From positions 1 through 42,655 of the forward strand of contig JADZCU010000015.1 in NCBI GenBank assembly GCA_020851415.1: 42,655 nucleotides of DNA, read 5' to 3'. The translations under genes were made by a program, and so were the position numbers. This document shows positions 8,089-41,908 of this stretch, one piece after another (position 1 is the stretch's first letter; every line of letters starts with the position of its first letter). Source of the DNA: Candidatus Peregrinibacteria bacterium (GTDB lineage Bacteria; Patescibacteriota; Gracilibacteria; UBA1369). A model generated the notes under the pieces. That model saw only the letters and a program-made list of their open reading frames with translations. It had not been told where the DNA came from and ran no database searches.

Positions 8089-8252
8089 AGTTATATTTTT
8101 TCCATGCTCTCAACCACAAATAAATAGTTCCCCCGCAAAGACAAATATCGCTACGGGACATAGTCACACAAAGTATGATACTTCCGGCCTTGCGTCAGCC
8201 TTTTTATTTATGTCACAATAAGGCTCTACAACATCAGCAAAATAATAGAAGA

Positions 8253-9278
8253 ATGCGCGTAACAACACCGCAAAATAAGCAGTTCACCGTAAAGCTGAAA
8301 AATCAGCAGGCGGCACTTCCAAAACCCGACTGGCTCAAAATCCGCCCGCCAAGCACGGAAAAATTTGCTGAAATCCGGTCATTGGTAAAATCAAAAAAAC
8401 TTTCGACCGTATGTGAAGAAGCGCACTGCCCAAACATGTCCGAATGCTGGAGCAGCGGCACAGCCACCTTTATGCTAATGGGAGACACCTGCACACGCGC
8501 CTGTCGTTTCTGCATGGTCAAATCCGGAAACCCCAAAGGCGTCCTGGATCCGGACGAACCCAAACACCTGGCCGAATCCGTAAAATCCATGGGCCTCGAT
8601 TACGTAGTGCTCACCTGTGTAACGCGTGACGATCTAGAAGACGGCGGCGCTACCCATTTTGCCAACTGCATCCACGAACTCAAAAAAACAATTCCGGGAA
8701 TAAACGTTGAACTTTTAATTTCCGATCTCAACGCAAACTTCAACGCCCTGCAAATAATTCTGGACGCCCAACCTGAAGTATTGGCTCACAACGTCGAAAC
8801 CATCGAACGCCTCCAACGCCACATCCGCGACCCCCGCGCCAACTACCAAAAATCCCTCGCAATTTTGGATGAAGCCAAAAAACGCAACAACGCAGCACTA
8901 ACTCAAACGGAAGCACATGCCCCAAACAAGAAAAGTCTGCCCGGGCAGACTCAAGGCGGCCCCCCCGCCCCTCAAAAAATCTACACCAAATCCGCCCTCA
9001 TGCTCGGCCTCGGCGAAACCGAAGAAGAGGTTGTGCAAGCCATGAAAGACCTCCGCGCCATAGATGTAGACATCGTCACATTTGGGCAATACCTCCAACC
9101 AAGCCCGTTCCACATCCAGGTCAAAGAATACGTAACGCCACAGCAGTTCAAAAAATATGAAGTAATTGCCAAAGAACTCGGCTTTTTGTATTGTGCCTCA
9201 GGTCCTTTCGTCCGAAGTTCTTACAAAGCAGGTGAATTATTCATAAAAAATATTATTAATCAGCGGAGAGAGAGATAA
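8253..9278 (+). CDS. lipA: Lipoyl synthase, with an unusual internal insertion
   Basis: LipA inserts two sulfurs into protein-bound octanoyl groups. All required Cys residues are present: auxiliary cluster Cys54, Cys59, Cys65 (CEEAHC...SEC) and radical-SAM Cys80, Cys84, Cys87 (CTRACRFC), plus the C-terminal RSSYKAGELF. The ATG at 8253 gives 341 residues; the frame is open back to 8175 but upstream residues are unlike the family. Residues about 212-243, just before the TKSALMLGLGE strand, are an extra segment rich in Ala, Pro and Gly. It contains the palindrome shared with the broken HNH gene. The stop codon lies inside the left arm of the 9265-9364 inverted repeat. The neighbours are pdhA and pdhB, whose E2 partner would be the substrate. 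Confidence 0.93.
   Translation: MRVTTPQNKQFTVKLKNQQAALPKPDWLKIRPPSTEKFAEIRSLVKSKKLSTVCEEAHCPNMSECWSSGTATFMLMGDTCTRACRFCMVKSGNPKGVLDPDEPKHLAESVKSMGLDYVVLTCVTRDDLEDGGATHFANCIHELKKTIPGINVELLISDLNANFNALQIILDAQPEVLAHNVETIERLQRHIRDPRANYQKSLAILDEAKKRNNAALTQTEAHAPNKKSLPGQTQGGPPAPQKIYTKSALMLGLGETEEEVVQAMKDLRAIDVDIVTFGQYLQPSPFHIQVKEYVTPQQFKKYEVIAKELGFLYCASGPFVRSSYKAGELFIKNIINQRRER
8934..8951. repeat. 18-bp perfect palindrome, copy 2, within lipA
   Basis: AGTCTGCCCGGGCAGACT is a perfect palindrome coding SLPGQT at residues 228-233 of LipA, inside the extra segment. Its 16-bp core and three upstream A residues are identical to 872-890. Confidence 0.9.
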
Positions 9279-9364
9279 ATTATTTTTGTGCAACTGGGGG
9301 TGGTGCCGCGCAAGCGAGCACTGGGGGCCACATTCTTGCATAAAAATGATTTATCTCTCTCTCC
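9265..9364. repeat. 100-bp nested inverted repeat, element E1
   Basis: Outer arms 9265-9293 and 9336-9364 pair over all 29 positions as RNA (27 Watson-Crick, two G-U). The interior reads CTGGGGGTG, an inner hairpin (GTGCCGC and GCG-A-GCAC capped by a GCAA tetraloop), then TGGGGGCCACATTC. The left arm includes the lipA stop codon and the right arm ends 12 bp before the pdhA ATG. Element E2 at 41257-41358 has the same plan, length and core. Confidence 0.85.
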
Positions 9365-9376
9365 CACAATCACACT

Positions 9377-10483
9377 ATGTTTTTAGACACCCACAACCCG
9401 CTCACGGACGATCCAATCCAAATCATGGATCAAGACGGCAAACTCAACGAAGCACTCCGTCCAAAAGAGCTCACCGACGAAAAAGTAAAAGAGATGTATG
9501 AAAAAATGGTTTTCATTCGCCTGGCCGACGACCGCATGAAAAAAATGCAACGCTCCGGCCGCATGGGAACCTTCGCCTCAATCGAAGGCCAGGAAGCCGC
9601 ACAAATGGGCAGCGTTTCCACACTCGAAAAAACCGACTGGGTAGTTCCGGCTTTCCGTGAACAGCTCGCCATGTGGATGCACGGCGTACCACTGGAAAGC
9701 ATCATGCTCTTCTGGAAAGGCAACGAAGCCGGGGGAAAAATCCCTGAAGGAGTAAATGTACTCCCTGTATCAATTCCGGTAGGCAGCCAAATGTTGCACG
9801 CAGTAGGTCTTTCTTGGGCATCAAAACTTCAGGGAAAAAACGAAGTCGCACTCACCTACTTCGGCGATGGAGCAACTTCAGAAGGCGATTTCCACGAAGG
9901 AATGAACTTCGCCGGTGTATTCAAAACCGCAACAGTTTTCCTCTGTCAAAATAATCAATTCGCAATTTCCGTTCCACGCCGCATTCAAACAGCATCAAAA
10001 ACACTCGCGCAAAAAGCCATCGCCTACGGATTTCCAGGAGTAATTGTGGACGGCAACGATCTCTTTGCTATGTACGCCGTCACAAAAGAGGCCGTGGAAA
10101 GAGCACGCCGTGGTGACGGCCCAACACTCATTGAGGCCTACACATACCGCCTCGGCGACCACACCAGCTCTGACGATGCCACCAAGTATCGTGAAAAAGC
10201 CGAAGTGGAAGCCTGGAAACCCAAAGATCCATTCCGTCGTTTACAACTCTACCTTGCCACCAAAAATCTCTGGAGTGAACAAATCGAAGCTGACCTCAAA
10301 GCAAAACTTCAACCGCAAGTTGATGAAGTAGTCGCAAAAGTAGACGCCACCCCAGACCAAACTATCGACGAACTTTTTGGTTACACCTACGCAAACCTCA
10401 CGCAAAATTTAGCAAATCAAAAAGCCTACATGAAACACGTTACAGAGCTCCAAGCCGCTCAGAAAGGAGGCGCGAATGCCTAA
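9377..10483 (+). CDS. pdhA: Pyruvate dehydrogenase E1 component, alpha subunit
   Basis: The 368-residue product is a thiamine-diphosphate-binding E1 alpha. The TPP motif starts at GDG (163-165) and ends at Asn-Asn (192-193), and the phosphorylation-loop-like YRLGDHTSSDD follows near 255. It decarboxylates pyruvate and passes the acetyl group to the lipoyl arm of E2. Its end overlaps the pdhB start by 8 bp, so translation is probably coupled. Two branched-chain 2-oxoacid dehydrogenase subunits are the main alternative; the linked E2 and LipA make pyruvate the simplest reading but substrate choice is not shown by the sequence. Confidence 0.88.
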   Translation: MFLDTHNPLTDDPIQIMDQDGKLNEALRPKELTDEKVKEMYEKMVFIRLADDRMKKMQRSGRMGTFASIEGQEAAQMGSVSTLEKTDWVVPAFREQLAMWMHGVPLESIMLFWKGNEAGGKIPEGVNVLPVSIPVGSQMLHAVGLSWASKLQGKNEVALTYFGDGATSEGDFHEGMNFAGVFKTATVFLCQNNQFAISVPRRIQTASKTLAQKAIAYGFPGVIVDGNDLFAMYAVTKEAVERARRGDGPTLIEAYTYRLGDHTSSDDATKYREKAEVEAWKPKDPFRRLQLYLATKNLWSEQIEADLKAKLQPQVDEVVAKVDATPDQTIDELFGYTYANLTQNLANQKAYMKHVTELQAAQKGGANA

Positions 10484-41170: not shown

Positions 41171-41256
41171 ATTCCACTTAGTATTTAAGGGCCATCAGGA
41201 TCTTCAAAATATTTGTGGAAGTCTTCTCCCTCATGAATGTTGAAGGCGATTCTGGA

Positions 41257-41358
41257 GGAGAGCAGGGAGCGGCACTTGCGAGCAGCTGGGGGTGAGCATG
41301 CTGAAAAAGCATGCTCGGGGGCCTCCCCATTGCTCGCAAGTGCTGCTCCCTGCTCTCC
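41257..41358. repeat. 102-bp nested inverted repeat, element E2
   Basis: Outer arms 41257-41284 and 41331-41358 pair over all 28 positions as RNA (one G-U). The interior is GCTGGGGGT, a 9-bp inner hairpin (GAGCATGCT and AGCATGCTC, 5-nt loop), and GGGGGCCTCCCCATT. It shares core, ends (GGAGAG...CTCTCC) and length with E1. It lies 4 bp beyond the stop of the gene at 41363, on the opposite orientation relative to E1's neighbour. Confidence 0.88.
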
Positions 41359-41362
41359 GACG

Positions 41363-41908
41363 TTAAAGCCCCTTCAACATCACCCTCACAATATTCATCC
41401 AATCATAAGGAAACCGATAAGTCTCATGTGCACGAACGGTAGCCATAAACATCGCCCAAGGATTATAACTCGCAAAAGTAAAACCGTTTCCAGTCTCTTC
41501 CAGAGGATGATAATCAGCAAGCATTGGAGATTTTTCATGACCGATAACAACAACACCATGCTTCATCAAATCTTGTAATTCTCGGTGTGGCTCCGCAAAA
41601 AGCACAGCCATATCCGCAGCAAACAAATACTCTTCAACCTTATTTTTTTTCTCAAACTCCTGTGGATTCAACCAGGTAATTTTTCCCGTTGGGTGTTTCA
41701 CACTATCACCAGGTTCTGCATCAGAAACAACAACCACATGTGATGGCAAAACCATAAAACCTTCCAGTAATTCAAAAAGTAAATCTTTCTCTTTGCTCTT
41801 TGCAAAAACCAAAACTAAAGGCTCACGGATATTTTTACTATCCCCCATCAATTTCATTTTTGCTTTCTTTTTGGCTTCCAGAACCTTTTGGTATTCAGCT
41901 TTACCCAT
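41363..41908 (-). CDS. Glycosyltransferase-like (GT-B) protein, tentative
   Basis: A 181-residue protein resembling only the C-terminal half of a GT-B fold: LVLVFAKSKEKDLLFELLEG, FAADMAVLFAEPHRELQDLM, KHGVVVIGHEK, and LEETGNGFTFASYNPWAMFM with RAHETYRFPYDWMNIVRVML. The end is like starch/glycogen synthase (ETGNGFxF then a helix with a Trp), but donor-site Glu residues are not clear. No N-terminal acceptor domain, so it may be inactive or work with a partner. It ends right at E2. Confidence 0.55.
   Translation of the reverse strand: MGKAEYQKVLEAKKKAKMKLMGDSKNIREPLVLVFAKSKEKDLLFELLEGFMVLPSHVVVVSDAEPGDSVKHPTGKITWLNPQEFEKKNKVEEYLFAADMAVLFAEPHRELQDLMKHGVVVIGHEKSPMLADYHPLEETGNGFTFASYNPWAMFMATVRAHETYRFPYDWMNIVRVMLKGL

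Follow-up and report, generated by a model that had tools for sequence, protein, structure and literature searches.

The stretch of DNA analysed here (the window) comprises 42,655 nucleotides and is one contig among the 81 that make up a 1.42 Mb genome of Candidatus Peregrinibacteria. On its + strand, lipA (8175..9278), which encodes a lipoyl synthase with the Pfam Radical_SAM and LIAS_N domains, is followed by pdhA (9377..10483, + strand), which encodes a dehydrogenase E1 component by its Pfam match. The junction of the two genes holds a nested inverted repeat of 100 nt, E1 (9265..9364, + strand), which the 3' end of lipA enters. A preliminary description of this DNA placed the lipA stop codon within E1 and the end of E1 12 bp ahead of pdhA, and both statements are correct: the stop codon occupies 9276-9278, inside the 5' arm, and the pdhA start at 9377 lies 12 nt past the end of the element. 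Elsewhere in the gene, the LipA of this genome carries approximately 30 additional residues (238-268; window 8886-8975) that are not found in the LipA of its relatives and are possibly an in-frame insertion; the palindrome AGTCTGCCCGGGCAGACT lies within this stretch.

E1 is built of two outer arms of 29 nt each, the 5' arm (9265..9293, + strand), which includes the final lipA codons and the stop, and the 3' arm (9336..9364, + strand). These enclose a core (9294..9335, + strand) that consists, in order, of CTGGGGGTG, an inner hairpin with a GCAA loop, TGGGGGCC and ACATTC. As first described, the arms pair at 29 of 29 positions, 27 of these being Watson-Crick pairs and two G-U (pairs 17 and 24), and the inner hairpin, CGC-GCAA-GCG, is present in the predicted fold. 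The + strand folds with an energy of -57.7 kcal/mol, against a mean of -24.9 for shuffled sequences (z = -9.9), and none of 200 shuffles matches it.

A second element on the same plan, E2 (41257..41358, + strand), is 102 nt long. Its outer arms (41257..41285 and 41330..41358, both + strand) form 28-29 pairs around a core (41286..41329, + strand) of CTGGGGGTG, the hairpin AGCATGC/GCATGCT, CGGGGGCC and TCCCCAT, in the same order of parts as in E1, and its fold of -88.7 kcal/mol compares with a shuffle mean of -43.1 (z = -12.4). The likeness originally claimed for the two elements, with nearly equal lengths and stems that differ in sequence and still pair, is thus confirmed. E1 and E2 far exceed in length every other inverted repeat (within 200 bases) of the window, and CTGGGGG-N(10-40)-GGGGGCC is matched inside them and nowhere else in the 1.42 Mb genome. 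The stop codon of a neighbouring gene without a Pfam domain (41363..41908, - strand) lies 4 nt past E2. A 10-bp inverted repeat, ATGTTGAAGG / CCTTCAACAT (window 41237-41246 and 41371-41380), surrounds E2, and because of this enclosure an older palindrome may hold E2 in its loop.

A covariance model derived solely from E1 and E2 found a third copy in this genome, E3, at G000:C7:2085-2186 (85.8 bits, E = 4.8e-14). Its arms have 29 paired positions of different sequence, its tip hairpin is identical to that of E2, and its core strands read TCGGGGGAG...CGGAAGCA, so that the CTGGGGG and GGGGGCC strands proposed as conserved are so only in part. E2 and E3 each lie against the end of a gene to which they are antisense, with the hairpin just 3' of the stop codon.

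The lipA loci of the same bacterial family were then fetched and searched with a three-member model (E1-E3), which gave an independent match of 41.6 bits in a second genus (genome G009). This element, too, lies at the lipA-pdhA junction, and its 5' arm, like that of E1, contains the lipA stop; in an alignment of the LipA ends its start is no more than 1-2 bases away from that of E1. Its stem is as long as those of E1-E3 and it shares their GCA-R-YYGGGG junction; it has two G-A mismatches in tandem and lacks the apical hairpin. Its core is inverted relative to E1, the core-bearing strand being antisense to lipA in G009 and sense in E1. A four-member model, R3, applied to 41 relatives, recovered the G009 element, with a score that is not independent because that element is part of the model, and one element in a third genus (G003), which scores weakly (29.9 bits, E = 0.008), also lacks the apical hairpin and sits upstream of a gene that we take from its sequence to be enolase. 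The G009 and G003 elements have in common GGGGWWGGGGCCCC, which is absent elsewhere among 227 loci, as well as CCTGAA...TGAAGGGCA. In the other 38 relatives R3 found no element. A census of long hairpins covered 611 kb of this genome, approximately 790 kb of G009 (counting a small overlap) and sampled stretches of four further relatives; in it E1-E3 have the top three scores and the G009 lipA element stands near the top within G009.

The family found so far therefore has five members, three from this genome, one from G009 and one from G003, of 76-102 nt, all five with the termini GG...CC. The shared plan is one of approximately 29 paired, covarying outer positions and a conserved junction, GCA-R-YYGGGG / CCCC-R/Y-TTGC; the additional apical hairpin is confined to this genome's copies, for which alone the order of parts first given, inner hairpin included, holds. 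The family is not limited to the two copies first noticed, since E3 and the G009 and G003 elements exist, but the many hits anticipated from a covariance search did not appear and the family is rare. Earlier models, R1 and R2, matched in this genome only when applied across the family, order and class; because both missed the G009 element, these negatives are weak and the wider absence is not firm. Among 84,980 genomes, 62 loci fit the pattern CTGGGGGTG-N-GGGGGCC-N-CATT, and we regard them as chance matches because the outer arms are missing in all (10 pairs at best, against 29 in E1). In 99 relatives the core pattern gave only chance-like matches outside this genome. The E2/E3 tip pattern had no matches in genome or viral contigs and the G009/G003 core none in viral contigs, where a looser core pattern had four matches that were judged to be chance. 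A phage or plasmid element is rejected, there being no phage or plasmid match to the element.

The distribution of the element at orthologous sites is uneven. A lipA match was obtained in 22 genomes, and among these the present one and G009 alone carry a hairpin at the lipA-pdhA junction; in the other relatives where pdhA follows lipA, either the two genes overlap or the spacer between them contains no long hairpin. G009 keeps the gene neighbours of E2 and E3 but has no element at either syntenic site, where gene ends abut or a terminator-like hairpin follows directly; its homologue of the gene beside E2 ends directly against the end of a pilin gene. The contexts of insertion vary, from the lipA-pdhA junction to convergent gene ends and the region upstream of enolase. 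These differences in presence and absence at orthologous sites argue for a dispersing element over a regulator fixed at lipA and pdhA. A tree of LipA places G009 in a group with G005, G010 and G011 (91/92) and does not pair it exclusively with this genome. It thus gives no clear support to the idea that sister genera inherited the lipA-pdhA copy vertically, and the shared site would reflect either a single old insertion, followed by loss and by inversion of the core, or two insertions at a favoured place. Both lipA-pdhA copies could be a single ancestral insertion, and this would speak more for a conserved local role than for mobility.

Among E1-E3 the outer stem retains 29 of 29 pairs, with both sides changed in 20 of them. 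Over the whole structure there are 21 double-changed pairs, against 7.6 in shuffled sequences (none of 500 shuffles as high) and at most 10 in slid-alignment controls; when G009 is added the count is 23, against 14.8 shuffled. A five-member MAFFT alignment misplaces part of the G003 core and, for this reason, pairs were not counted on it. Where the arms of the five members depart from Watson-Crick pairing, the pairs, read on the core-bearing strand, are seven G-U, no A-C and one G-G; the junction pair just inside the counted arm of G009, which is A and C, is the last stem position and falls outside the counted stretch. The core-bearing strand folds more stably than its opposite in five of five members. 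Orientation was assigned by the core sequence and, for G009, is also favoured by the model score, and the numbers are small: the chance of seven G-U to no A-C is 1 in 128 under equal expectation, or 1 in 64 if pair 29, shared by E2 and E3, is a single event. This one-sided excess of G-U, with no A-C, suggests that the fold of the core-bearing strand is under selection.

Such covariation need not, by itself, indicate an RNA. Template switching between the arms of inverted repeats is described as homogenising the arms and inverting the spacer (PMC8604942, PMC8794818), and could explain much of the covariation as well as the inverted core. Covariation alone is consequently no proof of RNA function, and the suggestion that a conserved core with compensatory stems marks a structured RNA or a folded DNA stands only in part: the compensatory changes and the covarying family are real, but arm homogenisation can give the same pattern. 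Taken to its limit, this process would leave the fold unselected, the elements being palindromes inserted long ago in which quasipalindrome correction maintains the complementarity of the arms, with covariation as a mutational by-product. The near-perfect arms and the inversion of the core between the two lipA-pdhA copies agree with such an account, but it predicts equal numbers of G-U and A-C where seven and none are observed on the core-bearing strand, and the conservation of the junction sequence across genera also speaks against it; we consider it improbable.

The same observations bear on a structured non-coding or cis-regulatory RNA class of this bacterial family, in which a protein or ligand would bind the core, the stem would present it, and the lipA-pdhA copy would tune pdhA against lipA. 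A junction conserved across genera along with compensatory changes, the better folding of one strand, whose wobble departures are G-U only, and the same position of the lipA-pdhA copies in two genera are what such a class would show. It would, though, require a cis-acting RNA to lie in opposite orientations in the same operon, as the core-bearing strand is sense here and antisense in G009; E2 and E3 are antisense to the genes whose ends they adjoin, the copies share no promoter, neighbour gene or orientation, and most relatives with lipA-pdhA lack the element. We therefore regard an RNA class as rather doubtful.

Comparison with known kinds of element narrows the choice further. The only Rfam match at gathering level in the window is a tRNA. 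E1 and E2 fall under the gathering cut-off of every family, their sub-threshold matches being mostly to long-hairpin microRNA models, and a known Rfam RNA is rejected, in keeping with the original expectation. An intrinsic terminator is likewise rejected, no T run following the hairpin directly, with a maximum of 2-5 T per 8 nt window after the stem on both strands. An intercistronic stabilising hairpin is found in the puf operon of Rhodobacter; hairpins of this type, like E1, lie between two cistrons of one operon, but they are not dispersed and have no conserved core. Integron attC sites combine a conserved fold and strand-specific structure with variable stem sequence, a logic that the E family shares; however, the E family lacks the RYYYAAC/GTTRRRY boxes at its ends, which are GG...CC in every member (judged by eye), no cassette array was seen, and attC is rejected. 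More generally, the elements could be DNA sites that a recombinase or transposase recognises as folded single strands, in the manner of attC or of the CTX phage attachment site, which is also folded. The retention of structure under drifting stem sequence, the strand asymmetry and the occupation of different sites all accord with recognition of this sort; the difference of the ends from attC boxes, the lack of a Y1 transposase in this genome and the lack of recognised mobile genes beside any copy make it very unlikely.

The Y1 (RAYT) transposase domain, PF01797, is absent from this genome, the control being positive in 5 of 14 reference genomes. REP and REPIN elements, which are associated with these transposases (PMC3733652, PMC3116915), are also extragenic palindromes, with proposed roles in transcript stabilisation or termination, but they are many-copy palindromes of 20-40 bp with GTAG or CGTC tags. 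The E family has few copies of 76-102 nt without such end tags, and on these grounds, together with the missing transposase, REP/REPIN is rejected.

The nearest known kind is the MITE. The 29-nt arms are terminal inverted repeats that flank a core of 42-44 nt, and presence and absence differ at orthologous sites. Prokaryotic MITEs such as QMITE2 of Coxiella and Correia/NEMIS of Neisseria (PMC10969869, PMC2649163) are similarly short and non-coding, with terminal inverted repeats of 23-29 bp, lie in intergenic regions or at gene ends, form a very stable stem-loop in the transcript and vary in presence between genomes. The E family differs from them in that its arms covary and are not conserved in sequence between copies, in its 1-3 copies per genome, in its GC-rich ends and in having neither a target duplication nor a known parent transposon. 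None of the five members has a flush direct repeat, the best candidates being 3 nt in G009 and a non-flush 5 nt, AATCA, at E1; target duplications of MITEs can decay over time (PMC10969869). In literature whose coverage is incomplete, we found no published account of such a family in these bacteria.

The reading that we prefer, with a probability of roughly one half, assigns E1 and E2 to a small family of dispersed palindromes that form hairpins, with few copies per genome and so far found in three genera of one small-genome bacterial family; these palindromes would have spread in a MITE-like manner, with their folding strand kept. The copies would have spread as non-autonomous elements, a mode that is likely though unproven, and against which stand the very low copy number and arm sequences that diverge far beyond what is expected of recent mobile copies. 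They may have been retained because the single-stranded form of the G-rich, core-bearing strand, probably RNA, has to fold. Where it sits, the element would act mainly as a very stable transcript hairpin; at lipA-pdhA, a stem that takes in the lipA stop and finishes 12 nt short of pdhA could separate the fate or the translation of the two cistrons. Arm-to-arm template switching during DNA replication probably aids the pairing and would explain the inverted core of G009. A new class of strand-specific folded element, copied or inserted as a single-stranded hairpin by a putative enzyme that would recognise the G-rich junction while the arms drift and compensate, seems to us an unlikely extension of this proposal.

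Outside the window, this genome also holds another family of structured repeats, separate from the first and approximately 120 nt long, with seven copies in 611 kb (L094:1088-1213, L095:6824-6948, L096:2225-2335, L149:5079-5200, L153:19453-19587, L190:6125-6248 and L191:2428-2549). Its plan is an outer stem, a conserved internal loop, TACGAGG / ACGAAGTA, a middle stem and a hairpin, CGTA..TACG; 33 of 48 predicted pairs are changed on both sides, and there was no Rfam match in the loci scanned, which were those other than L190 and L191. Further single long hairpins occur at L111:16957-17037 in G009 and, in this genome, at L190:1494-1585, L146:14009-14070 and L103:2244-2387, the last of which has a weak R3 score of 19.8 bits and no core.

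To our knowledge, dispersed repeats are not known for small-genome, gene-dense bacteria of this kind, and a repeat whose arms drift and yet remain paired is unusual. The E family is a warning that covariation by itself is not proof of RNA. It offers a natural test of whether arms co-evolve by selection on the folded strand or by template switching, for which the lipA-pdhA pair, with its inverted core, is a ready test case.
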